From NCBI RefSeq assembly GCF_042453785.1, contig NC_091664.1:6659001-6723000 (forward strand): a stretch of 64,000 bases of DNA, given 5' to 3'. The translations under genes and the position numbers were made by a program. This stretch comes from Malus domestica (taxonomy: Eukaryota > Streptophyta > Magnoliopsida > Rosales > Rosaceae). Below, one piece after another: positions 23,191 to 51,488 of this stretch (the stretch's first letter is position 1; every line of letters begins with the position of its first letter). Below the pieces are notes generated by a model that did no database searches, was not told the DNA's origin, and saw only the letters and a list, made by a program, of their open reading frames with translations.

Positions 23191-23194
23191 TCAT

Positions 23195-25312: not shown

Positions 25313-25356
25313 GATTTAGTTAATTTGTTTATTGTTTTTTTTTTGTTTGGATAGAT

Positions 25357-26737: not shown

Positions 26738-26917
26738 CTATATGTTTTAATGATAACATTTTATTTTAGTATTCCTTTTTATCATGCATTTGTTAGATAT
26801 TAGCACAATGATTGGATGGTATGCAAATTAATTGGATATTATGCAAGTTGATTGGATATTATGCAAATTGATTATTTGTATGGTATTTTCCTTCATTAAA
26901 ATATTTTTTGTTTAGGT

Positions 26918-27908
26918 ATGGATAACGATAATATTTTGAATGCTACTCAAGAGCCAAAAGGAAGAAGGCGTAAATGGGAAGCATTTGAGGAAGAAGTATT
27001 ACTAGGAGTTCTTGAGGATTTTGTTGCTCGGAAGCAACGGTGTGACACCGGTGCTTTCAAACAAGGTACTTTGGTTGAAATAGCAAAAGCTGTCAATGTT
27101 TTATGTCCTCATTCAAATATAAAGGCAAATCCACATATTGAGTCCAAGTTGAAGAAATGGAAAAAAACATATAGTATGGTCGTTGACATGATAAACACAA
27201 GTGGATTTGCATGGAATGATGTCAAAAAGTGCGTTGAAGTTGACAGTGATGACGCATGGCAAACTTATGTGCAGGTTCATATCCTATTTTATTTATGCAT
27301 TAGTTATATTCTTGCTGCTATATTTGTTACGCATGCTAAATTTTAGTTTTGCTATGTTGATATAATCTTAGAGAAATAAAGAAGCCGATGGATGGAGAAG
27401 CAAACCTTTTCCACTGTTTGATAGATTTGCATATATATTTGGAAAAGATCGGGCTACGGGTAATGTAGCCGAAACCCCTGCTCAAATGGTGGAGGAACAA
27501 AGTCATGATCATGTTGGTGAAAGTGATATTGGAGGTGAAAATTTTGTTTCTTCAATGAACCAACAAAGCCAACAAAGCACCCCATCTGAAAATAGCCAAA
27601 GAAAGAGGAAAAGAGCTGTGGGAAGTTCAAGTGATGGAACCGAGGCACTTATCAGTGGACTGAAAGATTTTTATGTTGAAAGTGGGAAGAGGATGCAAAT
27701 GGTAACTGAAGCTTTAGTTCAAGGTACTGCAGATCATACTGACATAGCTAATGAACTTGAAGCAATGGGTCTCTCTCCTATGGATCAAATTGATGCATTG
27801 TCTCTTATTTTGGATAAACCAAAAAATGTGGGAGTGTTCAGGGCAATCAAACCGGAACTCAAGAAAGTGTTCGTCCAAAGGCTTTTAAGCGACAACGCAA
27901 GCGGATGA
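26918..27908 (+). CDS. Harbinger Myb/SANT-like DNA-binding protein (ORF1)
   Basis: Two exons, 26918-27274 and 27372-27908 (894 nt, 297 residues), with a 97-bp GT-AG intron in phase 0. Residues 15-120 form a Myb/SANT-like domain (RRKWEAFEEEVLLGVLEDFV, later LKKWKKTYSMVVDM and GFAWNDVKKCVEVDSDDAW). After a Gln/Ser-rich linker and the basic RKRKRA, a C-terminal helical part (EALISGLKDFYVESGKRMQM, then DILNEL-like AELEAMGLSP) resembles the tail common to these transposon proteins and plant Myb_DNA-bind_3 proteins. In Harbinger and PIF elements this protein helps bring the transposase into the nucleus and to the element ends. Same strand as the transposase. Confidence 0.9.
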
Positions 27909-29651: not shown

Positions 29652-31636
29652 TTTGACAACCCGTCCCTAATTTTACAATTTTATTAATTTTAAATGAGTG
29701 AATGGACGAAAATGCCCCTAGAGGCGAGATTGTTGACTTTTGTTAATAGTCATTTCCGTACGCATATGAGCTATTATTTTACCTTAGCCTTGAAGTACTC
29801 GACGATACAAAAGCATAGGCGCAAGCAGAATCGAATTTGGAGATACGATAAAGATTTTACCTAACTACGAAATTTAAGGGTGTTTCATGAAATTTGAATT
29901 TTGGGTATTTTAATATTTTCTGAGTGGATATTTTAATTATTTATAATTTTTCTGGCCTATAGGGCCCACACCCACACAAACTCTCCACTATCTTCTTGCC
30001 ATCTTTCATCTTTTCCACCACTCTTATACGCTCTTTCTTCTCTCGATCTTCTCTCTCTATTACTCTCACTTCTCCCTCACTTCTCTCTTGTGTCTCACCC
30101 TACAACAACAATGGTGACACTAGGGTCCATCAACTCGCCATCTTTTTCGGTGAGGTCAACCAAACCACCACTTGGGTTTTCTTTCTCTTCCCTCTTCCCT
30201 CAGTCTTTCTTTCATCCCCGTCAAACTCTTTTACTCTCTCGTCTTTTTGCGATGCACCAAGATGGTGCAGTAGCAAACACCGAGCCACCACCATCATCGT
30301 TTTGACGAGTTTCAACCACAAAATAACTCACTCCATTCTCTCATTCGATTTTTTCACTCTCTGGACCTCGTGCACATTGCATAGAAACGTAACAGGGAAA
30401 GCCGCCATATTTTCCGCACAAGCTCGCAAACTTCCTACAAGGAACCGTTATGGGGAAGACTTTCCAGATTTTTTGGCTACTTTCAAGCCCTTTTGGCCAA
30501 CTCTAGCCACGGTTGAGGAACCCAATGGTGCGATTACTATTGGAGACTCCGGCTTTCCTAGTTCAAACGGCTGCAACCTCGCAAGTATCTGTGAGTGGGC
30601 CTTTTCTTTTATATAGTATATATATTATTTGAGTTTCCATACATAGATTAATAATGCAGTTTCTAAGTAATGCCATAATTAAACTGACTTTATAAGAATT
30701 GTCGTGATGATGAAAATTGTGAGATTAATATGAATCCTACGAGGATGCACAAGTATGCATATTATTACGAGATACCTTATTTATATTTACAGTGGTGAAT
30801 AGTATTATGTTGAGGTAAATTATTAATTTACCATTGTATGATTTTATTTATGTTCGTTGCTACACCAATATTAGTACTCGCCCAGGTCAGGGCTAGTCTT
30901 TCATGTGTATGTTCAAATTGCACACACGCTCACTTTGGATCCATTGTAGGTGTCAGTCTTGTCCTAGATTGCTATAGGCAATTAGGACTTATATGTGATG
31001 CGCATAACACCAGTCTTCATGTGATTGTAGTATTAGAGCGTATTACACTTAGTCTTGTTCATGTCAGAATATATTTGCATGAACTCGTGTGTCAGCATAT
31101 GTCGATGAGCACACAATATGATATATTTGTTATGTGAGATTATTTGATTACTGGACGTTAGGTGTTTATTTAAGAATTATTGTGATGTATTGAATTCTTG
31201 AGATATTGAAGGCTACGGTAAGTATTTTCATACTATACGTGATATCTATATTTGGAAACTATATTTGTTTTACGGCGAGGGGTTATTACGTTTTGAAAAG
31301 ATTTTTACAAAACTTTATTTTTAGGCCCACTCACCTTTGTTTTTCGCCCCTCCAGGTTTTAGTAGCTGAGCTTTCGTATCGATGAGGGTTCTAAGCAAAT
31401 CTTGGTATGGGAGGTTACTTTCGATGGTATAATTTTCAACCTACTCTACTGTACTTTACTTATGCTCTATTATCACATGTGAAATGAGTTCATTCCCGCT
31501 CACAAGCGCACTTTTTCATTTAGGCACTTTTAAGTTTAAATTTACTCACATTTTCCACATCACTACACCTTATGGCTTCGTCACCCTCCTGGTGTTGGCC
31601 AGCACAGCTCGATTCGGAGCCCAGGTGGACATTCCG

Positions 31637-32918
31637 GGTAAGGCTGGGTTCGATACGAAACGGTTCAATTTTTTGCCACAACCGAAATGGAACCAAAATT
31701 TTGATTCGTTGCAAAATTTTTTTGGTTTTTTTGCTTTGATTTTTTTTTGGTTTGGTTTTTTCCGATTCGGTTTTGGCCTGGTTTTGGTTTTTTTTTTTTC
31801 CTTCTTCTTCTTCTTCAACAATAAGGAAATAGCCAGATGAATCACATAGGGGATCATACCACTATGGACTAAAAGGAAACTGACCAGGAAACAGAAACAG
31901 AACTCGAATAAGCAGTAGAAACAATAGCTTGAAGGCAGTGAGATAGCCATAGTAAGCAATGTATGCAAGCAGGTTCTACCATTCAGGGAATCAAGCATCA
32001 ATACCAAATAAATATCCCACATCAAATTGATAGTTAATATTTGGAAATAAAAACCAAATTTTCAAATCTAAGAAAAAAAAGTTCGGATTTTCACATGCAT
32101 TTGCTCCCGCATCAAGAAGCTTTTGGACGCAAGAGATCTTGCCATGCATTGCAGCCAACGTCAATGGAGTCTGAACAATTTTCGACCAAACAAATCACAA
32201 GATAATTAGAACAAGAAATAAAACAGAAAAACCCAGAAAACCCATTTGCCCAAAATCCAGAAAAACTCAGAACAATAATTGATTTGGTGAAATCCCAATG
32301 AAGCAAATGAAGAACCCACCTCAATCTGGCCATTAGCGGTGGCGATATGAAGAATAGAGTGCCGGTCGTAAATAGGGGCAATATTGCACACAGATGTAGC
32401 ATAACCCAATCAGAACCTATTTGAATAGATAAACAGAATAGAAAATTAAACAGAGAGAAGTGAGAGTGTAAGACTAACCTGTTGTGACAGAGAGAAAAAA
32501 AGTTTGAGAGAGTGAGAGATAGAGAGTTTCAGAGGAGGTTCAGAGGCTGTGCGAACTGGGAAAATGGGAGACTCTCTACGTAGGGTAGAGTTAATCTACG
32601 GGGTAGATGGGAATTAATCTGTATAAATATGCCACTGATAATGGTATTACCAAGAAACAACCTGCTGTCAAAATGGTTTAAGGGAAACGCACTCAACAAA
32701 AGGGGAATGGGTTTGAACCTCTTTGGCTATAATTGTTTTTTGTGTTTTTTTATAATTAAATATATTTTGGTTTGGTTCGGTTCAATTCAGTTTTCGAACC
32801 TCAAAAATCAAAACCGAACCAACCAAATTCTGTTCGGTTCGATTTGACAGTTTCGGTTCTATTTTTTTCGACCTCGGTCCGATTTTTTTTAGTTTTCGGT
32901 TTTTTGAACCCACCCCTA
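31637..32918 (-). mobile_element. hAT-like non-autonomous transposon carrying an ankyrin gene fragment
   Basis: Ends are inverted: GTAAGGCTGGGTTCGATACG on the left, and the reverse complement of the right end reads TAGGGGTGGGTTCAAAAAAC. Both flanks carry ATTCCG (31631-31636 and 32919-32924), a candidate duplication. Subterminal runs of GGTTTGGTTCGGTTC occur on both sides. Between the ends lie exons of a host gene on the minus strand, so this looks like a gene-carrying (Pack-type) transposon. The class (hAT) is inferred from the end motif. Confidence 0.65.
31930..32409 (-). pseudogene. captured XBAT-like ankyrin repeat gene, three exons
   Basis: Minus-strand exons: about 32409-32320, ending at a GT donor after ...HSILHIATANGQIE; 32170-32098, beginning after a CAG acceptor with TPLTLAAMHGKISCVQKLLD; and about 31995-31930, with MLDSLNGRTCLH. 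The order and motifs match the ankyrin repeats of XBAT-type plant RING ubiquitin ligases, where such a GQIE/TPL junction and a LNGRTCLH repeat are found. There is no RING domain. After LNGRTCLH the frame is lost. No start codon can be assigned. It is a gene fragment carried by a transposon. Confidence 0.75.
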
Positions 32919-32939
32919 ATTCCGAGTCAAGGTGTGTCA

Positions 32940-32954
32940 GTTTGTTATCAGAGC
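32940..32954 (+). other. primer binding site of element A
   Basis: The bases GTTTGTTATCAGAGC directly follow the LTR end. They match the initiator tRNA-Met-complementary TGGTATCAGAGC with one change in its first bases. Here the match stops after about 12 nt and the next bases (ATAAGTTTGGGC) are not tRNA. Contrast the array at 45682-51488. Confidence 0.7.
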
Positions 32955-35900
32955 ATAAGTTTGGGCTGTATTGCATTCATCACACATATGATGTACGCAC
33001 CCTTTGTTCTTGAACCTAATTTTTGAATATTGCCACCTTGTTAAGCACGAAAAATGTACTAGCTTTCCTAAATTTTGGGCAGTTAGGCGACATTTCGACA
33101 TTGTAGAAGATCATTTTGGTAAATGCCTTTAGACTTAAAGCGAAGAAATTCCCTGCCAAGGAAAGATGTAGATTTGAGACAAGTTGATGGCCCTGAAACA
33201 GGGCTAATTTGCCAGTAATTGAGTATCACCATAGATTTATCAACCAATCCCACTACTATTATCTCGTCATCATTACCAACCTTTCGAGTTAGGAAACCCA
33301 GAAATAGTTGATCCCTTGGCAGTATATGTTAGTATACCACCTATCATAATTCCCACGAAGTTTTACTTTTCGTCGAAATCTCTGGAATGTCTTGAACGAC
33401 AATGTGTTGCTAAAGTGGTTGCACTCGACGAAAGAATATCTGGAGGACAATCACTTTTGGTCCCCGACTATACTAATCTTTTAAGCATAGTTATAATTTT
33501 GGATCTTTATAAGGAAGATCGATTTTTGTTAAAGTCCATTCTAAAGTAAGTTATTAGTAATTCCTTCTCCCGACCTTAGGATGTTCAACCAACATTAGTT
33601 CCTAGAATTCCTTTTGATGTTGTACTCGTCATTTCGATGAGTATAGGCATGAGAGTACGAGTTATTATACCTTCGGTTAGCAGAAAATTCAAGAAGCAGT
33701 AATCAATTTTCCCTTGATCCAGTGAGACTAACTCTTAGGATCAGTTCCTTACCAATCGTTCGAAACCATCCACCCGAGCAGGCTCTAACATGTAATCAGC
33801 CTACGGTGGCACTACTAATTGACAATAGTATCCAATATCCAGAAGTTGTCAACCAATATTCAGGTGGTATGATTTTTGATATCGGACACATGCTAGTATT
33901 TGGGAGTGATACCTTTGTGCCAGAACGCCGATTCACAGTTTCAGGACAACGAACAATATCAAAATATCTTAAATGTGTTAGTTAGTGACGTGACCGATAG
34001 ACTGATTAACAGTGACTTCCTGAGCCGAAGAAATTACAATCGTGGATACTTAAGAGCAAGCTTTATAAAAGGACCGTAAACTCACAGTTGTGTTAACCAT
34101 TTACCCATCTACTTAACCAGAACATTCTCGACCAGTCACCTTTCTGATCACCTTCACAGACAAACATTAGAATTGAAGCAAGCGTTGAATTCTCACTGTA
34201 ATAGCGAATTGAGTATCGAGAAAGCTGTGAAGACTTATTAATATGTGTTGTAGAGAAAGGAAGTAGTATTGTACATTTTGAGGACGCATATCTCTAGTGT
34301 CATTTCCAAAATTTTACCTAGGATATCACGAAATTATAAAGTGAAGTACACCATTGATTCAATTTTTCTAATATCACACCTATTCTCCTTTCATCTTATC
34401 AAATGACTCCTTCGGCTTTGAGAAAACTTAGTTACAAGAGTTTAGCGATTAGGAATTTACCGAACCGGGAACCAAACAATTTATCTTAGGAACCTCAAAC
34501 CTAGTCATGAAGACAAAAGACTAAACCGTAGGATCGTACCTAGATTCTAGCAACTCAATCGGGTGATGATTAAAAACCGTTAACCCCTACATCAAGTTGA
34601 AGGTCTCTCCGACCAACTTATGGAACCTAAGTTTTCTTCCATAGCCTAACGAATTCGTGGTAGTCTTACAGACGGCTTTCCTGCCTATTTCAGCAACGAG
34701 ATCAAATTTTATAAACACCGATAGTCAACTTTATACCAAATTTCTCAAATGTTAGTTTTATTTAAATTGATACTCTTCTTGGAGATGTGATCTCAGTAGA
34801 CAATATTCTTTTCTTTTTCCCAAAAAGGTTTTAGTGGAAAAAAGTTGAAATCCTCACAAAGTGTTGTGAAATATGTGATATCCTTGGTTTTGTCAATTTT
34901 ATCGGCCGTTTGTTAGTGATTTTTTGGCTATGGCATTTTTCTTCACATGTCAACCGAGGAAAGTTAGTTTAGTTATGATGTTGATTATGAATAAAGTTTC
35001 TAACAACTAAACTGTCACCTCACATTTGTTTTACACTTTTCGATGACATTGATTATTCGAAATCCACGATGACGTTTTCTTTGGAAGTTTTGGCTGTGTA
35101 GATGTAGTATGACGGAGTATTGCTTTTACTTCTAAATGGTTAGAATCATTTGAAATGAACCATCTTACTCATGACTTAAAGTCAACAGTTGCAATTTTTA
35201 CTTGAAAATTGGATGACACTTCTCTGTGGAGAACGTGTCCAAAATCTTTACCAACCATAGACTTCTCAAATATATCTTCACTTGAAATAAGCTAAATTTA
35301 TGACAACGACGATGGAAGAACCAAATCAAAGTCTACGATTGCATTTTCGTGTATTACACTGGTTGTGCAAACGTAGTTACTGTTTACCACAGCAAAAGAC
35401 ATATCAACCCTTGAACACCTTCATTTTGTCCTACCTCATTTTAATTGGAAATTCATGAATATTGATATGACGTTACCTACAAATCACCAAGAAATCGTTT
35501 GAGTGGTTATAATCACTTCCTATATCCAAATGAAATGGGGAAATATCACCATAAAGTTTTCGATACGAGGTATCTTGTACGTATGGAGATTATGGTGATT
35601 TTTCAGTGATTATCGACCGACTTAACAAGCTAACTCACTTTTCGTTGGTCCAGAGGGACTAAATTTTTTACCACTTGGTGAAATTTCTCATTTTTGAATT
35701 TATCGATTTTTTTGGCATTCTAATCGACATCTACTTTGACTATGATTCCATAGTCATCTCCTTGTGCCTAAAGCCATTCCAGTCAACCTTGAGTACATGT
35801 CTACCCTACTGGACTTCGTATTGTTTCTAAAGCAGACAAATCGTTTAGGAAAATCGTTCGGACATATTATTTTTAATTATGACCATTCATTCTTCAATCA

Positions 35901-37181
35901 CTGAACAAATACTTTGCTGAATGAATCTTTACCGTTGGTGATTGAATATTCCGGAAGCTACCATTGTAACGAGATGTTATGCATTCAATCCAGTTATCTT
36001 GTACTCTAGATTTGATGGACTTGTCTTGACCCTCAAATTCTCGAGTGTTTTTTTAGCCTTCTCGACATAGTTTTTGCTAAATCTAAGAGAAATTCAATAT
36101 GAATCTGCTCACTGAAGCGTTGTGAACCACATTGTTTCGTTACATGGTGTGTCCAACACTACTGTATCTCACCGTGATACGCATTTCATCTCCAAGTCTT
36201 AGAAGTCATCTTGAAAGCCATGGTACTAAGTTGTTATTCCATACCACATTTCACCCTTAGACCAACGGCCAGTCTGAATGAACTATCAAGACCTTGGAAA
36301 ACATATTGCCTTTGTCAATTTTGCAGTCTTAGCAAGGTTATGATGGACACCTATCTCTATTTAAGTTATGTACAATGATAGTTATTAATCTGGTTTGGCT
36401 ATAGTATTGTTTAAGCCGTTGTATAGAGATGTTACACACAGAACACGATTGACTGATGAGTATTGCAAACAGGTATTAGAATGATCAAGATTACGACATA
36501 GGAAATTATATAATATTGACGACATTGGCCGAGAGGGTAGTGCGTGAGTGCAATCGAGGCCTTGATCGGACGATTTAGGTGTATTTCCCAATGGGTGGCA
36601 TGATGGAATATTGCACCCTCGAGAATTTATTACTATTGAGGCAGTAGTGCTTTGTTGGTATTACAGACTGCAAACCGTAATGTTGACAACTTATTTGTTG
36701 GACTCGTTAAGCAAGTGGATAGATAGGCTTGTCTACGTTAGTATTTGTATTTGTTTATTTAATTAGTTATTTATTGGTTGTGCTTTACCCAAAGATACTA
36801 CACATTTATCTACGAAGTATGTGCTGCTACGAGTGTGCAGTGAAAAATCATTTTTATGTTTAGTTTTGATTTCAGTACAACTATTTTGAATCTTACATTA
36901 TTATATATGTATTTAGGCGTTATGTTATTATATACCTATTTTAACTTTCTGTTTTTATAAAAGTATCATATTATAGTTTTGTACTGAAGGAGAAGGAAAA
37001 TATGAGTTTGGAGGCATGAAAGAGGAATCATTGCAATCCGATCGCGACTGAATGACATTCCTTTTTATGCAACAGCTCTAACTTGATTTCTTCTTTATAT
37101 ATTTTCTTTCTATTTTGAGTATTTTCTGTATAACAACTTATTTCAAATTTCAGGGACAAATTTTTTTTAAGGTGGGTAGAT
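32955..37181 (+). pseudogene. internal region of Gypsy element A (heavily decayed)
   Basis: No long open frame remains. The only clear signature is integrase: near 36170-36310 the plus strand reads in pieces like DTHFISKS and, after HTTFHP, a TNGQSE-x-TIKTLEN string, the catalytic-Glu block of Gypsy integrase, with stops inside. Upstream reverse-transcriptase and gag parts cannot be read with confidence. A polypurine tract (AAGGTGGGTAGAT) ends it. Confidence 0.7.
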
Positions 37182-37665
37182 TGTGACAACCCGTCCCTAA
37201 TTTTTACGATTTTATTAATTTTAAAGGAGTGAATGGATGAAAATGTCCCTAAAGGTGAGATTGTTGACTTTTGTTGACCGTCATTTTGGAACGTGTATGA
37301 GCTATTATTTTACCGTAACCTCGAACTATTCGATGATACGAATGCGTAGGTGCAAGCGGAATCAAATTTGGAGCTATGATAAAAAACAATTACAGAACTA
37401 CGAAATTTGAGGGTGTTTTATGAAATTTGAACTTTAGGTATTTTATTATTTTAATATTTTCTGAATGGATATTTTATATATTTATAATTTTTCTAGCCTG
37501 TGAGGTCCACGCCCACTCAACTCTCCATTCTCTTCTTGCCACGTTTCATCTTTTCCACCACTCTTAGACGCTCTCTCTCTTCTTTCTATCTTCTCTCTTT
37601 GTTACTCTCACTTCTCCCTCACCTATCTCCCGTGTCTCACCCTGCAACAACAATGGCTGCACCGA
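37182..37665 (+). repeat. 3' LTR of element A, first part
   Basis: It begins TGTGACAACCCGTCCC and is homologous to 29652-30120 of the 5' LTR. It is interrupted at 37665 by element B and continues at 43614. Confidence 0.85.
37661..37665. repeat. target-site duplication of element B, left (ACCGA)
   Basis: ACCGA precedes the first LTR of element B; ACCGG (43614-43618) follows the second. One base differs. Confidence 0.65.
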
Positions 37666-38284
37666 TGTGGAGTAAAAAATAATCAAGAAAATTATGGAGG
37701 TGACATGTGGACTTTTGGGTTAAAATGACAAAATTACCCTTGAGACACACTGGAAGTCCCACGCGCATGCAACAGACAATAACGGCTCAATCAAAGAAGA
37801 GTCAAAGGTGATCAAAATGGTATTTATTCAAATCTCTCTCATCACTCCTCATCAAATCCTTATTCAAAAGGTATCTCCCAAAACTTCTTATTTAATTTGG
37901 GATTAATTACCATGTTAATTGCAAGATATTATTTCACATAATATCTTGCAATTAACATGGTAATTAATCCCAAATTAAATAGGAAAATAATATCTTGCAA
38001 TTATTCTCCAATTACACCATATATGGTGGGCCACTATTCTCCAAATAGGGTCGACCACCCTCCTATAAATACCCCTCTTATCCCGCTAAAATGGAGACAC
38101 ATCTGCTACCCACTAACTCTTAAACACATTCTTTTCAGAATTCTAACTTTGGCATCGGAGATTCTTCGGCCAAAGCCTCCCCATTCATTATGGGCACGTG
38201 AGGCTTTTGGCCTTAATCAAATGTGTTATTATTTTGCAGGTGCATTTTTGTCAAAGGAAGAGATGGTAGAAATTTGCATCCACA
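37666..38284 (+). repeat. 5' LTR of element B
   Basis: About 619 bp, TG...CA ends, with TATAAATACC near 38062. It contains the perfect palindrome at 37889-37981 that the other LTR lacks. Confidence 0.85.
37889..37981. repeat. perfect 44-bp-arm palindrome in the 5' LTR of B
   Basis: Left arm 37889-37932 and right arm 37938-37981 around a 5-nt loop (TTCAC). The right part repeats ATAATATCTTGCAATTA, which recurs just beyond at about 37988. The other LTR of B has only the short hairpin GATATTATTTCACATAATATC, then goes directly to TTCTCC. The extra 63 bp is thus a templated addition. Confidence 0.9.
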
Positions 38285-41200
38285 AATTGGTGCTTTCATT
38301 GAGAGTTTGATTCACACACTCGAAGAAGACTCTCGCATTCAAAGTTTCTCATTTCTCGTTCGTTCGTAAATTTTTCATACATTCTTATTCCTAGAATTTT
38401 TAATTCTTCGAATAGACGTAGGAGAAAAATACAATGGAGAACACAATGAACATAACTTCCTACGTTCAAAGATCCGGATCAAATGATAGAAAACACGATG
38501 TAGCCCCACCACGACGATTCACGAAACTCATCGTGACAAGAGGAGTAACCTTGCCACCACGGAGCACCACCATCATGGTAGCCGTTGTAGTGGATAGTGG
38601 GACAGCTCGGCCATGAAACAACGACAACTGCAGCCCAGCAATAACCTAGCGATTAGCTGCAAAGCAGCAAGCCCAAAAGGCAGCCAACCCAAGACTCACA
38701 GGCCCATGACAAGCCCAAGCCATGTCGAGAAAAAGAAATACCCAGGGCTCGTATGCCTTGGCGGCCTAGCCTGTGCTCGGGATCCGGCCTATGCCCGCGA
38801 TCCGACCTGCACTCGAGGTCTAACCCACTCTCGTGGCTCACCTAACTGCCTAGACCGATTCAACTGTCATGACTTCAAATTTTTGGACCTACAATTGAAC
38901 CAGGGGTATTTTCACCCCATTTTTCTGCAAATTTGACATATCCCAACTCAAATCCCATGCTTGGAGTTTATTACACTTCCACTACTCAATGAGACGCATA
39001 TTGTCCAAGCTTTTTCATCCTAAATGACGAACAGCACTTGTCTCGACAAGTAATAGAGTTAACAAGTGCCCTCGCGGAGCAGACGATCTTGGTGAATCAG
39101 CTTTTGCAGTGCACTGAGATGCAGCGTGCCCCAAACGAGGTATCCTGAAGTAGGACAAGGGCAGATGACGAACCTCTCCAACATCTTCCCGGCAAGCAGC
39201 CATTTGACCATCCACGAACCAAGCATTCAGGCAGTGTACACTTTTGTCTGGGCCCTCAAGATAGCGTATACTCTTGTCATAGTGCGCGAAGGAGCGTGCA
39301 CTCCCTGGTAGCCCCACGAACGAACATATATTCACAGTTAGGGGCACACTCTGATAATCAACATGGATAACCTTCCAAGCGAAGTGTTCATTTGCGGCTA
39401 GGCCCACAAGGGGCATCCTTCACCTTACAGTGGAGTAGGCAGCACAACGAACGGAGAGAAGCAATCACTCAATCTGGCTTAAGTTTAACAGGCAGTCTGC
39501 GAGTGACTCGCTCGCCTGCCAAGAATGTACCACATGCACCGCAACCGTAACATAGACGAGCTAAGCATAGGGAAGAGCAGCCTAGATCGGCAGTCGAAAA
39601 CTTTGCTTCTCAAATAGGCAAATTCAGGAATAAGTTAAAAGGCTTCTGATTGCACGATTGCATGATTTCCAACGCAACAAAGCTACTAACAAAGCACTCC
39701 GACAAGACATAACCATCCCACAGTATAAACAGGTCACCTTTCATTGATAAGATCGAGCAGACGGAACCATCCCACATACACTGGAGGATACAATGATTAC
39801 TTATGTTCTGACAAACGCATCAACTCAGCCTAATCGCACGTTAGGGGCAGACAGGTACCAAAATGACACACCGACCCAACCACCAAGAACCAAGGGCATG
39901 TCTTGTTTTCACCATAACTTTGCACTCAAAGTCGTGCCTACTTGCTTCAGAGCTCCTAATTGTTCTTGATCTGTCACCATGGCTCCCAACGGTGCTGATC
40001 TTGCACCCTTACACGGGTTCCACAAGTAGTTCGAAGTCTCAAGCAGATCACCGAACAAGATCTCATAGGGTGAGGATTATTTCAGTTGTCCAGCTTTCCT
40101 CACTTGCGCTCACGACATCGACTTCCATGCTCTTTAGTGCGAGAGGATAAATCAATTCCCTAACACACATATGAGTTAGCTCTTCAGTGTAAATCAATTC
40201 CCTAACACTCATATGGGTATGCTCTCCATTGCGAGAATGTAAACTAATTGCTCTCCAGTGTGAGAGGGTAAACCAATTCCCCGAAACCCATATGGGTCAG
40301 CTCTCTAGTGCGAGAAGGTAAACTAATTACTCTCTGGTGTGAGAGGGTAAACTAATTGCTCTCCAGTGTGATAGGGTAAACTAATTCCCCGACACCTATA
40401 TGGGTAAGCTCTCAAGTGTGAGAGGATAAACTAATTCTCGGACACTCATCTAGGTAAGCCAGAGGGAACACCAATTCTCGGACACCCATCTAGGTAAGCC
40501 AGAGGGAACACCAATTCCCCGACACCCATCTGGGCTACACAGCTCAAATGATCGAATACTCGATACTAGTTAAGCAACAAATGGTCAGGAGGCAGCAGCT
40601 GACGACGAACTCAACAGCTCGAAGCCCCAATAAGCCAAAACTCACGGCCGTAGTGACTCTGTGAGATCGTCAACCTTTTTCGAAGCAGCGTGCTCAACCG
40701 ACAGTTTTATGCCTAAAAGTTTTGCAAGATGCTTCAAGCAAGCAAAGTTTCAAGAAAAACAAAGATGGAGTAAAACGAAAGTAGTTTATTAAATTTCTAG
40801 CAAATTGATAAACTTATATGAAGCAGACTACTCATTTGGCAGCTTGGATGACCTTGGGCTCTCCAGTAGCCATCCTGCCTTCAGCAGCCACTTCGCACTC
40901 AGCAATTTTCTAACCTGACACTTCATCTTTAACAGCTCCAATCTTAGTAGCACTATCTTCGATTACTCCATCTACGACAGCTGAGAAATCAAATTCAAGC
41001 TGTTTCTTCCTTTTTGACAAGCAGCATAAATGTGGTAGCCTAAACTATGGCCTTTGCCACACCACTTCCTTGACATATGCCGAGCAGCCCAAGTTGTGGC
41101 CCTTGCCACACCACCTCATCAGCTCATGCCGTGTCAACTCCTGACCCCTGTCAGCTGAAGTGCCGCACCACCTCGATGGCTGCCTCGCAACACCACTACC

Positions 41201-41524
41201 CAAGAAGAAGACAAAGAAAATTAATTTTTTTTTACCTTGGTGTGGCATGGAGAAGACAAAGAAATCAACGGAAGGCGGTTCTTTACAAGGGCCCTCTGAG
41301 CAAATATCCTCTAGCTTTCTCTCTTTCTTGTAGAGATAAATAATTGCCCTCTGAAGTTGATTTAATCCCCTACTTAAGGTAGGCTTAAATAGGTTTTGGA
41401 GGTGATTTATTTCCCTTTCCTAGAAGAATCTAATTCCAAGTCCAAGTTGGAATCTGCATCAAAGTTGGAGATCTCTACACCTACTGCCCTTTCATGTCAG
41501 CAACCCAGCATGTGTGGGGGCATT
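38285..41524 (+). pseudogene. interior of LARD element B
   Basis: Short open frames only: 38434-38616 (starts MENTMNITSYVQRSGSND) may be a gag remnant; 38613-38936 and 39015-39416 are not recognised. No reverse transcriptase or integrase motif is seen. The stretch 40140-40530 is a tandem repeat. The interior is GC-rich compared with its neighbours. Confidence 0.6.
40140..40530 (+). repeat. degenerate tandem repeat in element B
   Basis: Units of about 45-65 bp mix GCTCTCCAGTGTGAGAGGGT, AAACTAATT and CCCGACACCCATATGGGTAAG. At least seven degenerate copies occur. The last part alternates GCCAGAGGGAACACCAATTC units. Confidence 0.75.
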
Positions 41525-41770
41525 TGTGGAGCAAAAAGTAATTAAGAAAATTATGGAGGTGACACGTGGACTTTTGGGTTAAAAGGACAAAATTACCCTT
41601 GAGGCACATCGGAATTCCCACACGCATGCAACAGACAATAACTACTCAATCAAGGAAGAGTCAAAGGTAATCAAAATGGTATTTATTCAAATATCTCTCA
41701 TCACTCCTCATCAAATCCTTATTCAAAAGGTAATTCCCAAAACTTCCTATTTAATTTGGGATTAATTTCC

Positions 41771-41775
41771 ATGTT
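41771..41775. repeat. target-site duplication of element C, left (ATGTT)
   Basis: ATGTT precedes element C; an identical ATGTT at 43303-43307 follows it. An exact 5-bp duplication, so C inserted as an LTR element and has not been rearranged since. Confidence 0.9.
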
Positions 41776-43302
41776 TGATGCAGGACAGAACCAAGGGTAT
41801 CAAGGAGATGGGGATAGATAACTTGGGATTCGCTTAACCAGGGGCAACAGAGCTCGCTCACGTCGTTAATCGTGGATTCACTCACACAACCAAGCCAAAT
41901 GCTTGATTGGGGAAGGAGAAATCACTCACTTCAATTGCACAAAGCAAAATATATTTTAATTCATTCAAGTCTCCATTCAAGGTTTTCTAGTACAATATTT
42001 TTAAGCGTTTACAAATTAATAGACTTTAAGTTTCCATGACACCTTTACAACTCCCAAAATAACTTAACAAATTCCTAAGTAATTAAAATACAAAACCTTT
42101 GTTATTCCAAAGTATATTAATGGTTTCAAATTGTTTTCTCCAAGTCTTCCTCCCACATCATTCTCATATTCTCGAAAGAAAAAAACTCGTCCTCAAGTTT
42201 CAATTGACCTATTCTTCTTTTTTTCCATTTTTTTCCTCGATCTTTTGGATGTCCAACCAAGATGTTCCACAATACCCAATTTAGCACCAAAATTTTCCAA
42301 TTCCTTGAGCAAATCCAAATAGTAGAATATTCCAAGTATTTTGCTTTCCAAAACTTTCTCAAGTTCTGTGCACCGCTTAATCGTTTCATGATAGCAACAA
42401 TTTCTTTTGAAATATGCTCGTCAATCTTCCAGATTTCCTTTTGATATTGATGACTTGGAAAAATGCTTTGGTCCAAGTATATTTTCCTACTATGGAAAGC
42501 AATAAAGGATTCCCAAATGTAGTCACATATATAATGGGTATCACGGTCAAATATTACCTCTTTATGATGATGCATGCACCGTTCTTTCACAGAGGAACTC
42601 ATTCCTTTGTCACCATAGCAGTATTCATAAAAAATTGGAGCAAGATTGGCATTGACTCCAAGTTGCAAGCAACATTGGTGATTAACCACCATAAGCATAA
42701 CCTTGTAATCTTGATCTTGCTCGCCTTAAATTAGTAGAGAACACCCATCGAAAAAGATCTCTTTGAGGTTGACATCATCATCAACGTACTCATCATAAAT
42801 TGGTGGTAAATTCCAATCAATGAAACTAGTTTCTTCGACAGTGTGCTCTTCAAACAGATTGTAAATCACAGCCATGGTCTTCAACCGCAGCGAATAACCT
42901 GCTCTGATGCCACTTGATGCAGGACAAGCCAAGGGTTCTCGAGGAGACAAGGGATAGATGACCTGAGAGTCACTCAACTAGGGGCAATGGAGCTCGCTCA
43001 CGTCACTAATCGTGGATTCGCTCACACGACCAAGCCAAACGCTTGATTTTAGAAGGAGAAACAACTCACTTCAATTGCACAAAGCAAAATATATTTTATA
43101 ATTCATTCAAGTCTCCATTCAAGGCTTTCTAGTACAATATTTATAAGTGTTTACAAATTAATAGACTTTAAGTTTCCATGACACCCTTACAACTCTCAAA
43201 ATAAATTAACAAATTCCTAAGTAATTAAAATACAAAACCTTTGTTATTCTAAAGCATATTAATGGTTTCAAATTGTTTTCTCCAAGTCTTCCTCCCGCAT
43301 CA
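41776..43302 (-). mobile_element. TRIM-like mini LTR retrotransposon C (1527 bp)
   Basis: Direct LTRs at 41776-42160 (385 bp) and 42915-43302 (388 bp) start TGATGCAGGAC and end C(A/G)CATCA. On the minus strand the first LTR is followed by AGTGGCATCAGAGCAGG (about 42898-42914), a primer site close to TGGTATCAGAGC. The interior (42161-42914) is about 750 bp. Exact 5-bp duplication ATGTT. Confidence 0.85.
42126..42977 (-). pseudogene. TRIM C interior, residual coding-like frames
   Basis: Two minus-strand frames: 42726-42977, containing PPIYDEYVDDDVNLKEIFF, and 42126-42698 (190 codons), with WESFIAFHSRKIYLDQSIFP. The first looks like a worn pol-related piece seen in many plant elements; the second is unrecognised. 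Both overlap LTR sequence at one end and are not treated as genes. Confidence 0.45.
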
Positions 43303-43613
43303 ATGTTAATTGTAAGATATTATTTCACATAATATCTTGCAATTATTCTCCAATTACACCATATATGGCCGGCCACTATTCTTCAAATAGGGTCAGCCAC
43401 CCTTATATAAATACTCATCTTATCCCACTAAAATGGAGAGCCATCTGCTACCAAACACATTCTTTTCAAAATTCTAACTTTGGCATTGGAGATTCTTTGG
43501 CCAAGCCCCCCATTCATCATAGGCGCGTAAGGCTTTTGGCTTTAATCGAAGGTGTTATTATTTTGTAGGTGCATTTTTATCAAGGGAAGAGATGGTGGAA
43601 ATTTGCATCCACA

Positions 43614-45022
43614 ACCGGCGTCCACCAACTCGCCATCTCCTTCAGCAAGCTACACCAAACCACCACCTGGGTTTTCTCTATCTTCCCTCTTCCCTCTGTC
43701 TTTCTCTCATCCCCTTCAAACTCTCTTACTCTTTCGTCTCACTGAGATGGTGCAGCGATGAACACCGAGCCACCACCATCGTTCGTTGTTTCGACGAGTT
43801 TCAACCACAAAATAACTCACTCCATTCTCTCCTTCAGATTTTTCACTCTTTGGACTCCATGCAAATTACACATAAACGTAATGGGGAACGCCGCCATGTT
43901 TTCCATGCAAGTTCGCAAACTTCCTACAAGGAACCACTGTGGGGAAGACTTCCCAGATTTTCAGACGACTTTCGAGCCTTTTTTCGGCCAACTCTAACCA
44001 CTGCTAAGGAACCCAATGGTGCGATTACTATCGGAGACTCTGACTTTCCTAGTGCAAACAACTGCAACTTCACAAGTATCTGTGAGTGAGTCTTTTCTTT
44101 TATATAGTATATATATTATTTGAGTTTCCATATATAGATTAATAATGCATTTTCTAAGTAATGCCATAATTAAATTAACGTTATAAGAATTGTCGCGATG
44201 ATGAAAATTGTGAGATTATTATGAATCCCACGGAATGCACATGTATGCATATTATTACAGGATACCTTATTTATATTTACGGTAGTGAATAGTATTATGT
44301 CTACGTAAATTATTGATTTACCCTTGTGATTTTATTTACGTTATCTGCTCATCTTTGCTACACTGGTGTTAGTACTCGTTCAAGCCAAGGCTAGTCTTTT
44401 ACATGTATGTTCACATCGCACCGTACGCTCACTTCAGATCTATTGTAGATGCTAGTCCTATCCTAGATTGATATAGGCAATTACGACTCATATGTGATGC
44501 ACATATCATTATTCTTCATGTTATTGTAGAACTAGAGCGTAAATTAATATTACACCTAGTCATGTTCATGTTAGAATATCTCTGCATGAACTCGTGTGTC
44601 AGCATATGTCAATGAGCAATCGATATGATATGTTTGTATCCGAGATTATTTGATTATTGGACATTAGGTGTTTATTTACGAATTATTAATGTGATGTATT
44701 GAATTCTTGAAATATTGTAGGCTACGATAAGTATTTTCATACTATAAGTAGTATGTATATTTGGAAACTATACTTGTTTTATGGCGAGGGGTTATTACGT
44801 TTTGAAAATATTTTTACAAAAACTTTATTTTTAGGCCCACTCACCCTTGTTTTTCGCCCCTCCAGGTTTTAGTAGCTGAGCTTTCATATCGACGAGGATT
44901 CTTGGCAAATCTTGGTATGGGAGGTTACCTTCGATGGTATAATTCTCAACCTACTCTACTGTACTTTACTTATACTTTGACATCACTTGTGAAATAGGTT
45001 CATTCCAGGTCGAGGTGTATCA
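43614..45022 (+). repeat. 3' LTR of element A, second part
   Basis: It continues the LTR of A: CGTCCACCAACTCGCC here matches GTCCATCAACTCGCC at 30126. It ends GGTGTATCA; the flank ATACC matches the ATACA left of the element. About 100 bp near the 3' end, present in the 5' LTR, is missing (TTCATTCC joined to AGGTCGAGG). Confidence 0.85.
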
Positions 45023-45681: not shown

Positions 45682-46419
45682 TACACCGAATCGAGCTGTG
45701 ATGGCCGACACCCGGAGGAATAAGCCATAAAGTGCAATGATGTGGAATATGTGAATAAATTTAAACCTAAAAGTGCCTAAATACAAGAGTGCGCTAGTGA
45801 GCGGGAAGGAACCCATTTCACACGTGATGTCAGAGCATAACTAAAGTGCAGTAAAGTAGGATGAGAATTATACCACTGAAGGTGATCTCCAATACCAATA
45901 TTTGCCAAAAATCCTAATCGATACGAAAGCTCAGCTACTAAAACCTGGAAGGGCAAAAAACAAGGGTGAGTGGGCCTAAAAAGAAAGTTTTATAAAAACC
46001 TTTTCGAAAAATAACCCCTTGCTGCACAATAAGTATAGTTTCCAAAATATACATACTACGTATAGTAAGAAACTACTTACTGTAGCCTACAATACCTTAA
46101 GAATTCATTACGGCATAATATCTCGTAAATAAGCGCATGACGACCATAATCACAAAATCTCGCATACGCAAACATATTATATCAAGTGCTCATCGACACA
46201 TGCTGACACACGAGTTTAAGCGGAGGTATTCTGACATGAACAGGACTGGGTGTAACAATGATATACGCTCAAGTACTACAATCACGTGAAGACTAGTGCT
46301 ATACGTAGCGTATACGAGTCGGATTTGCCTACGGCAACCTGTACAAGTCATTATACCTACAGTCAGTAGAAGTCCCCGAAGTAGTAAGTATTTTTCCCTA
46401 GAATATATTGAAACCATCT

Positions 46420-46491
46420 ATCAGAGTGGCGTAGCGGAAGCGTGGTGGGCCCATAACCCACATGTCCGAGGAACGAAGCCTAGCTCTAATA
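46420..46491 (+). tRNA. initiator tRNA-Met(CAT) copy 1, with CCA, pseudogene
   Basis: 72 nt resembling plant initiator tRNA-Met (starts ATCAGAGTGGCGTAGCGGA; anticodon CAT in GGGCCCATAACCC) with several substitutions in the T arm. CCA follows (46492-46494), and then AACTGACACACC, the LTR end complement. Genomic plant tRNA genes do not encode CCA, so the CCA here comes from a primer-site junction. Confidence 0.8.
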
Positions 46492-47270
46492 CCAAACTGA
46501 CACACCCCAACCTAGAATGTCCACCTGGACACCGAATCGAGCTATTCTGGCCGACACTCGGAAGGTGACGAAGCCATAAAGTGTGGTGATGTGGAAAATG
46601 TGAGTAAATTTAAACCTAAAAGTGCCTAAATACAAGAGTGCGCTGGTGAGCGGGAATGAATCCATTTCACACGTGATGTCAGAGCATAAGTAATGTACAG
46701 TAAAGTAGGATGAGAATTATATCATTGAAGGTGATCTCCAATACCAATATTTGCCAAGAATCCTCATTAATACGAAAGCTCAGCTGCTAAAACCTGAAGG
46801 GGCGAAACAATGGTGATTGGGCCTAAAAATAAAGTCTTGTAAAAGCATTTTCGAAAACATAATAACCCCTCACTGTAAAACAAGTGAAGTTTCCAAAATA
46901 TACATACTACGTATAGTAAGAAAATACTTACTGTAGCCTGCAATACCTCAAGAATTCATTACGGCATAATATCTCGTAAATAAGCGCATGACGACCATAA
47001 TCACAAAATCTTGCATAAGAAAACATATTATATCGAGTGCTCATCAACACATGCTGACACATGAGTTCATACAGAGGTATTCTGACATGAACATGACTAG
47101 GTGTAATAATGATATATGCTCTAGTACTACAATCACGTGAAGACTGATGCTATGCGCAGCACAAACGAGTTGAAGTCACCTATGGCAACCTGTATGAGTC
47201 GTTATACCTACGATCAGTAGAAGTCCTCGAAGTAGTAAGTAGTTTTCCCTAGAATCATCTGAAACCATCT

Positions 47271-47342
47271 ATCAGAGTGACGCAATAGAAGCATGGTGGG
47301 CTCATAACCCACAGGTCCTAGGATCGAAACCTGGCTCTGATA
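47271..47342 (+). tRNA. initiator tRNA-Met(CAT) copy 2, with CCA, pseudogene
   Basis: 72 nt starting ATCAGAGTGACGCAATAGA, with anticodon loop GGCTCATAACCC and T arm GGATCGAAACC. CCA at 47343-47345. Changes in the D arm and acceptor neighbour probably spoil folding. Confidence 0.8.
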
Positions 47343-48122
47343 CCAAATTGACACAACCCAACCCAGAATGTCCACCTGGACATCAAATTGAGCTGTGCTG
47401 GCCGACACCCGGAGGGTGACGAAGCCATAAAGTGTAGTGATATGGAAAATGTGAATAAATTTAAACCTAAAAGTGCCTAAATACATGATTGCGCTGGTGA
47501 GCGGGAATGAATCCATTTCACATGTGATGTCAGAACATAAGTAAAGTACAGTAAAATAGGATGATAATTATACCATTGAAGGTGATCTCTAATACCAATA
47601 TTTGCTAAGAATCCTCATAGATACGAAAACTCAGCTACTAAAACCTGGAGGGGTGAAAAACAAGGGTGAGTGGGCCTAAAAATAAAGTTTTGTAAAAGCC
47701 TTTTCGAAAACATAATAACCTCTTGCTATAAAACAAGTATAGTTTCCAAAATATACATACTACGTATAGTAAGAAAATACTTACTATAGCCTGCAATACC
47801 TTAAGAATTCATTATGGCATAATATCTCGTAAATAAGCACATGACAACCATAATCACAAAATCTCGCATAAACAAACATATTATATTGAGTGCTCATCGA
47901 CACATGCTGATGCACAAGTTCATGCAGAGATATTCTGACATGAACAGGACTGGGTGTAACAATGATATACGCTCTAGTACTACAATCACATGAAGACGAG
48001 CGTTATGCGCAGTGCATAAGAGCTGGAGTTACCTATGGCAACTATACAAGTCGTTATACCTACGGCCAGTAGAAGTCCCCAAAGTAGTAAGTATTTTTCC
48101 CTAGATTCATCTAAAACCATCT

Positions 48123-48194
48123 ATCAGAGTGGCGCAGTAGAAGCATGGTGGGCCCATAACCCACAGCTCCCAGGATCGAAACCTGGCTCTGATA
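48123..48194 (+). tRNA. initiator tRNA-Met(CAT) copy 3, with CCA, pseudogene
   Basis: 72 nt starting ATCAGAGTGGCGCAGTAGA, anticodon GGGCCCATAACCC, T arm GGATCGAAACCTGG, acceptor end CTCTGATA, then CCA (48195-48197). It is the closest of the four to the expected initiator sequence; CGG-to-TAG and GCG-to-GCA changes in the D arm are of the C-to-T/G-to-A kind. Confidence 0.85.
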
Positions 48195-48960
48195 CCAAAC
48201 TGACACACCCTGACCTAGAATGTCCACCTGGACATCAAATTGAGTTGTGCTGGCGGTGACGAAGCCATCAAGTATGGTCACATGGAAAATGTGAATAAAT
48301 TTAAACCTAAAAGTGCCTAAATTCAAGAGTGCGCTGGTGAACGGGAATAAACCCATTTCACACGTGATGTCATAGCATAAGTAAAGTACAGTAAACTAAG
48401 ATGAGAATTATACCATTGAAGGTGATCTCCAATACCAATATTTGCCAAGAATCCTCGTTGATACGAAAGCTCAGCTACTAAAACTTGGAGGGGCGAAACA
48501 AGGGTGAGTGGGCCTAAAAATAAAGTTTTGTAAAAGCCTTTTTGAAAACATAATAACCCCTCGCTATAAAACAAGTATAGTTTCCAAAATATACATACTA
48601 CGTATAGTAAGAAAATACTTACTGTAGCCTGCAATACCTCAAGAATTCATTACGGCATAATATATCGTAAATAAGTGCATGACGACCATAATCACAAAAT
48701 CTCGCATCAACAAACGTATTATATCGAGTGCTCATCGACACATGCTAACACACGAGTTCATGCAGAGGTATTCTGACATGAACATGACTGGTGTAATAAT
48801 GATATATGCTCTAGTACTACAATCATGTGAAGACTGGCACTATGCGCAACGCATACGAGTCAGAGTTGCCTATGGCAACTTGTACAAGTCGTTATACATA
48901 CGGTCAGTAAAAGTCCCCGAAGTAGTAAGTATTTTTTGCTAGAATCATTTGAAACCATCT

Positions 48961-49032
48961 ATTAGAGTGGTGCAGCGCAATCATGGTGGGCCCATCACCC
49001 ACAGGTCCCAGTATCGAAACCTAGCTCTGATA
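48961..49032 (+). tRNA. initiator tRNA-Met(CAT) copy 4, with CCA, pseudogene
   Basis: 72 nt starting ATTAGAGTGGTGCAGCGCA, anticodon loop GGGCCCATCACCC, then CCA (49033-49035), AAC and the end of the full LTR (49039). This is the copy directly next to the complete LTR. Confidence 0.8.
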
Positions 49033-49038
49033 CCAAAC

Positions 49039-51488
49039 TAACACACCTCGACCTATAATGTCTACCTGGACAACGAATCGAGATGTGCTGGCCGACACTC
49101 GAAGGGGGAAGAAGCCATAAAGTGTGGTCATGTGGAAAATGTGAATAAATTTAAACCTAAAAGTGCCTAAATACAAGAGTGCACTGGTGAACAGGAATGA
49201 ACCCATTTCACATGTGATGTCATAGCATAAGTAAAGTACAGTAAAGTAGGATGATAATTATATTATTGATTTTTGCCAAGAATCCTCGTCGATACAAAAA
49301 CTCAACTACTAAAACTTGGAAGGGTGAAAAACAAGGGTGAGTGGGCCTAAAAATAAAATTTTGTAAATACCTTTTCAAAAACATAATAACCCCTCGCTGT
49401 AAAACAAGTATAGTTTCTAAAATATACATACTACATATAGTAAGAAAATACTTACTGTAGCCTGCAATACCTCAAGAATTCATCACGGCACAATATCTCG
49501 TAAATAAGCGCATGACGACCATAATCACAAAATTTTGCATAAGCAAACATATTATATTGAGTGCTCATCGACACATGCTGAGACACGGGTTCATGCAGAG
49601 GTATTCTGACATGAACATGATTGGGTGTAACAATGATATACGCTCTAATACTATAATCACGTGAAGACCGGTGCTATGCGCAGTACATACGAGTCGAAGT
49701 TGCCTATGGCAACCTGTACAATAGGACTAGCACCTACAATGGACCCAAAGTGAGCGTACAATGCGATGTGCGCATACACATGAAAGACTGGCCCGGACCT
49801 ATGCAAGTACCAACACCGGTGCAGCAAACGATGAGCAAATAACATCAATTTAGTCATGCCATAGTAATTCGATAATTCTAGTCAATATAATAGTAATAAA
49901 TATGATATTACTCATGGTTGTAATTAAAACTCCATATCAGTATGCATACATGTGCATCCCGTAGGATTTATGATATTTTCGTAACTTTCTGTTATTTTGC
50001 AAATTCTTATAAGCATTAGTCTAATCTAGGCATGCATAGGAAATTCTTTTTCAAATGTATAAATGGAAACTAAATAAATATATATAATATGTAGAAGCAA
50101 AGACCCACTCACAGATCATGTCGTTGAGTCGAACCCATTCGAACTAGAATAGCCGAAGTCACCGATAATAATCGCACATAAGCATAATATTAGGACCCAT
50201 TAGTAAAACTCCACTAAAATGATTAAATTTGGGAAAACGGAGTGCAAATTTGAAATCAGGGTGTCGAAATACGCTAAGGAGGGTCCCTGACATATTTTAC
50301 AAAAAGTCAAAGGTTAACCCTAAAAGTCAATTGAGACACCCCAGTGGTTAACTACGTTAAAACTTCGGGATTTCACTAAATGGATGTGAAAAACGGACTC
50401 AGGACGTCAAAATTAATCTATGAGGGTTTCCGAGACATTTCCGAAAAGCCAACATAAGAAATATCCCAAGAATATTCCAGAGAATATCCCAAGAATATTT
50501 CAAAGAATATTCTTAGATTATTCTGAGCCCAATTAGGTAAATGGGCCAATTGGACCTTGGGTTAAAGGGTCATGGGGCAATGGCCTAAAATTCAGGGCCC
50601 CCTTTTCCTTTTTTTTTTTTTTTTTCCATCTTCTTCTCCTGCTGGTTGCCACTGCAACCGCCAGATTCCACTCAGTTCCGACCACACCAAAACTTAACTA
50701 AACCTAGCCTTCCAATATATCAAAACAAAGCTCAGAGAACAAGGAATCGAAATATACCTTTGACTTCCTCTACCATGGTCGGAGGTGGTCGAAAAACAGC
50801 TTGAAGTCGTTGAGCTCTTGCTGGAAAATCTGGAAAAGTACACCTGAGGTGTTTTGTCGTCGAAACTTGAGATATCACCGAATTCCGTTGGTGTTCATAT
50901 GCAGCCAGCACAAAGGAAGAAAGAGAGATGGGAGTTTGTGATGAGGGAGAAGGGACAATGTAGTGATGATGATGATGGCTGGTGGTGGAAGAGTTCGCCA
51001 GAGTGGCGACCGAGATGGTGCCTCAGGTCTCGACGTACTTGTTTTGCAGAGGGAGGAGAGAGTTAGAGAAAGACGTAGAAATGAAAGGTGGAGAGGCATG
51101 AGAGCCTGAGGGAGAGAGAGTTTGCCAGGTGTCAAGAGAAGGGTGGAGAATTTATGTGAGTGTGGACCCCATGGGCCAGAAAATTTATAAAATATTTAAA
51201 ATATCCACTCAAAAATATTAAAATAATAAATTATCCAAAAATTCAAATTTTATAAAACACCCTCAAATTTCGTAATTCTACAAAATCTTTATCGCAGCTT
51301 CAAATTTGATTATGCTTGCGTCTACGCGTTCGTACCGTCGAGTACTTCGAGAATACGATAAAAGAATATTTCGTAGGTCGCAATATACGCTGGTCAACGA
51401 AAGTCAAAGCCCTCGTCTCTAGGGACATTTTCGTCAAATCATTCATTTAAAATTTATAAAATCGTAAAATTAGGGACGGGCTGTCACA
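49039..51488 (-). repeat. complete LTR at the head of the array
   Basis: Minus strand starts TGTGACAGCCCGTCCC (51488) and ends GGTGTGTTA (49039), 2450 bp. It is homologous over its length to the LTRs of element A, with an extra GC-rich, pyrimidine-rich part at 50580-51130 that includes a long T run at 50610. The five bases beyond it (51489-51493) are GTCAG. Confidence 0.85.

Follow-up and report, generated by a model that had tools for sequence, protein, structure and literature searches.

Positions 45683-51487 of the window (the whole 64,000-nt stretch of Malus domestica DNA analysed here, contig NC_091664.1, forward strand) hold a tandem array in which complete copies of the initiator methionine transfer RNA (tRNA-iMet) are joined to partial long terminal repeats (LTRs) of a retrotransposon family. 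An earlier note, made from the letters alone, had described such an array, and we found it to be real. On the minus strand, sequence reading gave one LTR of 2,449 bp (51487 to 49039) followed by four tRNA-bearing units with a period of 833-853 bp, each consisting of GTT or ATT, TGG with the complete antisense tRNA-iMet of 72 nt, a spacer of 75 bp and a 3' LTR part.

The array LTR begins TGTGACAGCCCGTCCC on the minus strand. Its complete copy (49039-51487, minus strand), delimited by sequence reading and self-comparison, starts TGTGACAGCCC and ends in TGTTA, a mutated form of CA. The tRNA copies, given here with their CCA, lie on the plus strand, antisense to the LTR, while the spacers and LTR parts were assigned to the minus strand. 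In unit 1, GTT (49036-49038) separates the complete LTR from tRNA copy 1 (48961-49035), which is followed by its spacer (48886-48960) and an LTR part (48201-48885) covering LTR positions ~1767-2447. Unit 2 comprises tRNA copy 2 (48123-48197), spacer (48048-48122) and LTR part (47349-48047); unit 3 likewise comprises 47271-47345, 47196-47270 and 46498-47195, and unit 4 comprises 46420-46494, 46345-46419 and 45683-46344. The LTR parts all start at about LTR position 1767, and the fourth ends at 45683, corresponding to LTR position 2418 of 2449 (matched span 1767-2418), so that it is cut about 31 bp short of the LTR end. Read on the plus strand, each tRNA copy is followed by CCA, then AAC in three copies or AAT in one, and then the reversed LTR end. 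The earlier note had assigned a whole 72-nt tRNA, CCA and AAC to every unit, which is correct for the tRNA and CCA in all four units and for AAC in three. The complete LTR is flanked by GTCAG; the opposite end of the array, where the second copy of a 5-bp target-site duplication would lie, is cut off at 45683. The array LTR belongs to the family of element A, another element in the window, with whose LTRs it shares 75-84% identity and TG...CA-type ends; long matches (>450 bp) at other genomic places, those in the array excluded, were 83-87% identical.

The tRNA identity of the array copies is secure. The same genome encodes nine identical 72-nt tRNA-iMet genes and one with a single difference, and alignment with these genes gave 8, 4, 7 and 7 differences of 75 for copies 1 to 4, respectively. 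The Rfam tRNA model detected one of the four copies in a search of the whole window and three above the gathering score when the array was searched alone, where one copy had no match up to an E-value of 0.1, and ARAGORN predicted one of the four. A functional tRNA gene cluster was rejected in view of the 4-8 differences per copy against nine identical genes, the encoded CCA and the lack of any compared gene flank. The encoded CCA together with GTT ties the array copies to the primer site: each starts at CCA directly on the short spacer between LTR and primer site and extends past nt 58 of the tRNA.

Normal family members and the inverted spacer

Reverse transcription usually copies just the last 12-18 nt of the primer tRNA, at which a modified base halts the enzyme. 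The ordinary structure of the array family was read in the window's own 651-Mb assembly (19 contigs), which was the genome searched in this study. The 24 locus identifiers examined resolved into 12 distinct normal places, the rest being second copies, LTR ends that lack a primer site and in some cases belong to fused loci, or loci with no usable LTR end (L041, L049). All 12 places showed the LTR end, GTT, the primer site TGGTATCAGAGC (12 nt with 0-2 differences) and then the leader ATAAGTTTGGGC or a close variant, and in none of them did the match to the tRNA continue beyond 12 nt. Element A, for which a match ending after about 12 nt had been claimed, conforms to this: its 5' LTR, with an insert of ~1.25 kb near the 3' end seen by eye, is followed by GTT and the primer site TGTTATCAGAGC at 32943-32954 (together 29652-32954, plus strand), after which the sequence departs from the tRNA. 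The LTRs of element A (29652-45022, plus strand) are interrupted by further insertions, and an imperfect 5-bp duplication, ATACA/ATACC, is seen at its ends. The array carries 75 nt of tRNA in place of the ordinary 12-nt primer site and family leader, and since all 12 normal places have a 12-nt primer site, the array tRNA positions past it derive from the tRNA itself.

Two normal members, L022 and L023, contained no open frame of at least 150 aa (stop to stop) in 9.0 and 8.0 kb, respectively, and look non-autonomous from their sequence. Of two Pfam searches with open frames, one gave no match and the other gave a single retroviral SH3-like domain, on the other strand of L024, and one match below the cut-off.

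The bases beyond the tRNA 5' end had been noted as not clearly LTR, and their comparison with the flanks of tRNA genes had been put forward as a means to distinguish the possible origins. The 75 bp preceding the next LTR part are indeed not LTR, and the comparison was informative, as they are neither LTR nor any of the compared tRNA-gene flanks; the spacer is an antisense piece of the family's own internal leader. A genome search with spacer plus tRNA (100 candidates, 40 scored, 41 matches listed) returned four places at which spacer and tRNA both matched, which were the array units, and 15 at which the match was confined to the spacer or, in one case, to the spacer and 5 nt more. Among the 41 matches listed, the tRNA-spacer junction was found only at the array locus. 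In the ten spacer loci that we read (seven of the 15 spacer-only places plus L015, L017 and L022), the orientation relative to the LTR was always inverted, and the distance behind the LTR end was 712-756 bp in eight of nine measured loci and 514 bp in one. By eye, ~38 bp of the leader are missing inside the array spacer. At its far end the spacer joins the LTR sequence ...CTATTGTACAGG, where the joint has a 7-nt overlap with the normal loci L054 and L015, reading ...ACTTGTACA; L049 shares 6 nt.

The inverted leader piece between tRNA and LTR points to template switching, as a leader fragment running backwards is expected if the nascent strand left the tRNA at its 5' end, moved to a plus-sense template and then returned. 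For the comparison with gene flanks, the 200 bases past the ungapped end of the tRNA in the four array units and eight fused loci elsewhere in the genome (described below; L063, L064, L066 and L068 were outside this comparison) were searched against the 400-bp 5' flanks of 12 tRNA-iMet genes or gene-like copies. The bases beyond the array copies matched none of these 12 flanks, and the single match up to an E-value of 0.1 in the entire comparison, a 23-bp stretch at 0.03 in L061, was not convincing.

LTR-tRNA fusions elsewhere in the genome

We then surveyed the genome for further fusions with two patterns built from tRNA-iMet only, and the resulting census is pattern-dependent and a lower bound for older copies. 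The first pattern, 31 nt of the tRNA-iMet core with up to 3 mismatches, yielded 22 matches; its reversed control yielded 0, which excludes chance. These comprised 10 tRNA-iMet genes (L030-L038 and L040), one gene-like 5' fragment (L047), three array units, seven LTR fusions (L057-L063) and one tentative fusion (L064), in which 45 nt of tRNA with 6 differences stand behind an LTR end that is copia-like by eye. The second pattern, TGG plus 22 nt with up to 2 mismatches, yielded 15 matches and again 0 for the control, comprising three array units, L056, L057, L058, L059, L061, L062, two genes, and L065 to L068. Of the last four, L068 is a fusion with 40 nt of tRNA and L066 (41 nt) is tentative, while L065 (25 nt with 1 mismatch) was too short to call and L067, in which 18 nt agree exactly and 27 nt at 2 mismatches before the sequence diverges, was taken for an ordinary representative of the L057-type family. 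Together with L016, obtained from the LTR and spacer searches, ten firm fused loci and two tentative ones were found besides the array. The earlier note had held that a single recombination event would suffice if the bases 5' of the tRNA copies matched the flank of one genomic tRNA gene and LTR-tRNA junctions were confined to the array; the former matched none of the 12 flanks compared, and the ten firm loci show that the latter are not so confined. The fusions come from at least three LTR families: that of the array, the L057-type family (L056, L057 and L063 by BLAST through L067, and L068 by eye) and a Cassandra-like element. No fusion was detected in viral and prokaryote sequence collections, where the 5 matches in all followed the tRNA for 12-13 nt only.

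In L057, the LTR end and GTT are followed by 67 of 67 nt of the tRNA and then by other DNA with an open frame seen by eye, which had no Pfam match. A repeat 0.2 kb behind the L057 tRNA was considered as a second LTR and left unused, its letters resembling a reversed Cassandra-like stretch. In L056 (C1:4726000-4732000), 66 nt of tRNA (by BLAST) follow the LTR end, and a second copy, in sense orientation, lies ~110 bp further on; the antisense and sense copies (2640-2878) would make a hairpin-like pair. L058 is a tandem of Cassandra-like LTRs with CA repeats as outer flanks, in which 58 of 58 nt of the tRNA stand in the place of one internal piece and lead directly into the next LTR. The 5S-derived box C of Cassandra, with motifs taken from PMC7215508, had 3 exact matches in the L058 LTRs against 0.03 expected, and box A had 4 matches at 1 mismatch against 1.04 expected, a number equalled in 7 of 200 shuffles; the Rfam 5S model had no match. 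With 5S-derived boxes A and C and a tRNA-Met primer site, L058 has the features of Cassandra, and it shows the same junction in an unrelated, Cassandra-like element.

L059, L060 and L068, of 741, 253 and 147 bp, begin with a reversed LTR 3' end (the end of the unique 5' region, U5), end with a forward U5 end and contain the tRNA copy inside. The L068 insert (45-191), the smallest of six measured, is built from three pieces of U5 end plus 40 nt of tRNA and has CCCCT on either side. L016 and L061 are LTR-like inserts with tRNA inside, the LTR start of L061 carrying changes, and L062 is similar. In L063, 11 nt of primer site give way to tRNA sequence in the sense direction, the switch passing through the self-complementary acceptor sequence ATCAGAG. 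A copy that starts at CCA and passes nt 58, as in the array, was also found in L056, L057, L058 and L068; L059, L016, L061, L062 and L063 show this in part and L060 does not. L059, L016 and L062 keep GTT though no LTR end is adjacent, which would fit a primer extended by three nucleotides before a switch.

Perfect 5-bp target-site duplications were found in five of the six fused inserts tested: L016 (ATATT), L059 (GTCAT), L060 (CTTTA), L061 (TTTTA) and L068 (CCCCT). The U5 ends on both sides of L059, L060 and L068 fit a complementary DNA (cDNA) accepted by integrase. The tRNA copies stop at nt 9 in L057 and L062 (67-nt copies), nt 10 in L016 and, by BLAST, L056 (66-nt copies), nt 18 in L058, nt 19 in L061 and nt 36 in L068, and reach the tRNA 5' end or its vicinity in the array, in L060 (by BLAST) and in L059 (nt 4). 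A clustering of end points at modified G9 was considered and set aside: L016 and L062 join where LTR and tRNA look alike, and a plant study (PMC10298058) shows the G9 modification for other tRNAs.

Origin of the array

We consider it likely that the array is a fossil of aberrant reverse transcription combining read-through of the primer tRNA, template switching and amplification, and that similar events recurred in this genome, with integrase inserting several of the products. The copied tRNA is the family's own primer; the copy has its start precisely at the primer site (GTT-TGG), extends as far as the tRNA 5' end and passes from there into the inverted leader and back into the LTR. That the primer tRNA was copied far past the primer site during cDNA synthesis is well supported by these sequence features. 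Plus-strand DNA synthesis would have proceeded from U5 into the primer tRNA, with the minus strand still joined to it, and along its full length past modified A58, the usual stop. At the tRNA 5' end the strand would have come off and, by a first switch, continued on a plus-sense template in the leader, probably genomic RNA; a second switch would have returned it to the LTR minus strand. At or soon after insertion, the unit may have been amplified by renewed cycling on the short LTR-tRNA template, by rolling-circle copying, or by slippage or unequal exchange. The same read-through and switching would have been repeated elsewhere in this genome, with integrase inserting several of the products. 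Synthesis through the whole primer tRNA, which the earlier note had favoured, gains from the lack of a match between the array and the 12 compared gene flanks and from the existence of other LTR-tRNA junctions. The note's further suggestion that strong-stop products were simply joined head to tail has to be abandoned in that form, as the inverted leader piece sits between tRNA and LTR.

Several observations weigh against this reading. The full 7-nt microhomology at the spacer-LTR joint is present in only two of the ten normal loci, and seven read ACTCGTA and share less. The last unit of the array is cut off at 45683, which leaves the array's own insertion as cDNA presumptive, and L062 was the one insert of the six tested without a target-site duplication. 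The L060 copy lacks the first nucleotides (no TGG end), and the L063 tRNA is in the opposite sense. The piece preceding GTT or ATT is not an LTR end in L059, L016, L061 and L062, so that further switches are needed, as they also are for L060. L016, L061 and L062, moreover, share the region of their tRNA-LTR joint, in which LTR and tRNA resemble each other by eye, so that the three loci are perhaps not independent. Four units with the same junctions are unlikely to stem from four separate double switches, which makes an additional amplification step necessary, and read-through alone does not explain the later copy-number expansion. Finally, the tRNA copies do not form a perfect star: 5 of 75 positions separate copies 2 and 3, against 10-13 for the other pairs. 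The rarity of the full microhomology and the closeness of copies 2 and 3 lowered our confidence and raised the standing of late amplification.

In that scenario the first fusion was an aberrant cDNA, and the array grew much later in DNA by slippage or unequal exchange, so that it tells nothing about tandem reverse transcription. Besides the closer copies 2 and 3, the two junctions common to all four units would agree with it, and in PMC7215508 unequal exchange is proposed for copy-number change in LTR-internal arrays. The distances among the LTR parts argue the other way. Pairwise differences were 9.0-11.7%, at 0.102-0.117 between the complete LTR and the units and 0.090-0.113 among the units, and a maximum-likelihood tree of the five LTR parts resolved no inner branch. 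The 35 two-against-three sites fell into eight groupings, and the one seen most often, at 7 of the 35, unites the LTR parts of units 1 and 2. The complete LTR being as far from the units as these are from each other, amplification close to the origin of the locus is indicated, and the array was probably amplified quickly and near its origin, as judged from these sequences. We therefore regard much later growth as unlikely. The locus is compatible both with amplification on the cDNA and with amplification in the chromosome. The ~10% divergence between units argues against a duplicate introduced by assembly.

Still less probable is a single recombination event at the DNA level that joined a primer site to a genomic tRNA-iMet gene, with unequal crossing over afterwards, the alternative named in the earlier note. 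A crossover in the 12-nt primer site, which equals the gene end plus CCA, would also yield CCA and a full tRNA, and the similar distances between units would agree with unequal exchange in a later burst. However, what lies past the tRNA is the family's own inverted leader and none of the 12 compared gene flanks, by which this route is largely refuted for the array, and the other loci stop inside the tRNA, involve at least three LTR families and carry target-site duplications in five of six inserts tested. An extended primer site as the family norm, with a full-length tRNA complement and the array as a plain tandem duplication of the 5' end, is very improbable: Ty1 is reported to use primer interactions beyond the primer site (by a reference title in PMC5371799) and tandem arrays of LTR and internal piece are known for Cassandra (PMC7215508), but all 12 family copies with a primer site carry 12 nt and then the ordinary leader, and of the 41 matches listed, those that covered the tRNA as well as the spacer were the four array units alone.

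Beyond the array, read-through of the primer tRNA might be a regular output of LTR-retrotransposon reverse transcription in this plant, giving integration-competent U5-tRNA mini-cDNAs, with a short LTR-tRNA template that can be cycled into tandem products. We put this forward tentatively, rating it somewhat below an even chance; if true, genomes keep a readable record of how far reverse transcriptase reaches along a modified primer. Fusions with target-site duplications make a hidden step of replication countable in plant genomes at large. From them one can read the frequency with which the stop is bypassed, the points at which the enzyme leaves the tRNA or changes template and, from U5 at both ends, the kinds of misbuilt cDNA that integrase accepts. 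They also offer tRNA-derived sequence and new tandem repeats a way into genomes.

Elsewhere in the window, a long imperfect (GT)n-rich tandem region and an adjoining 50-bp tandem repeat (TGCCTCGGGTTAATGAAAACTTTTT...) together occupy ~2 kb (23188-25333). Open frames on the plus strand (25324-26737) may represent the transposase side of a PIF/Harbinger-type element, with a putative trihelix-like frame at 26900-27908. Fragments of a Ty3/gypsy-type polyprotein were seen, by eye only, at 1547-4977 on the minus strand.

Comparison with known systems

The chromosomal tRNA-bearing copies look like by-products rather than working elements. A Ty1 paper of 1994 by Lauermann and Boeke reportedly concerns, from its title, primer tRNA sequence not being inherited. 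In PMC5371799, the Ty3 primer site is described as not perpetuated from the tRNA, and Ty1 and Ty3 as not inheriting tRNA sequence. The replication step is the same here, the primer tRNA being copied into plus-strand DNA, whereas the tRNA sequence is inherited in chromosomal copies. Plant primer sites surveyed in PMC6317226 include tRNA 3' ends, half-tRNAs and self-priming. No description of chromosomal primer-tRNA fusions was found among the best-matching open-licence literature.

Two plant systems resemble the present loci in part. Tandem LTR-internal-LTR arrays of Cassandra and other plant elements, as presented in PMC7215508, share the head-to-tail LTR units and a short internal piece starting with a tRNA-Met primer site; in those arrays the internal piece is the element's own, whereas here it is a full primer-tRNA copy and an inverted leader fragment. 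Helenus elements, terminal-repeat retrotransposons in miniature (TRIMs), carry tRNA-derived sequence in their LTRs according to PMC10886601, and L016, L061 and L062 resemble them at first sight in having tRNA sequence in LTR-type DNA. By that account, the tRNA-like part of Helenus stands in both LTRs of a repeated family and has no complementarity to the primer site, whereas the sequence here is that of the primer tRNA with its encoded CCA. A Helenus-type TRIM was rejected for the array, which has its tRNA copies placed between LTR parts and whose tRNA-spacer junction occurs nowhere else among the 41 matches listed.

A precedent in cDNA is the cloned murine leukaemia virus circle of Colicelli and Goff (1986), with a tRNA between LTRs, as cited in PMC12220202. 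In both cases a reverse-transcribed tRNA stands beside an LTR end and is explained by copying of the priming tRNA. The viral case, as described there, was one clone with a spurious tRNA-Gly primer, whereas here the element's own primer was copied and the copies are chromosomal, in one array and, across several LTR families, at ten other firm sites and two tentative ones. The type of event is thus known from cloned cDNA, and what is new is its chromosomal recurrence, the inserts bounded by U5 and the array.

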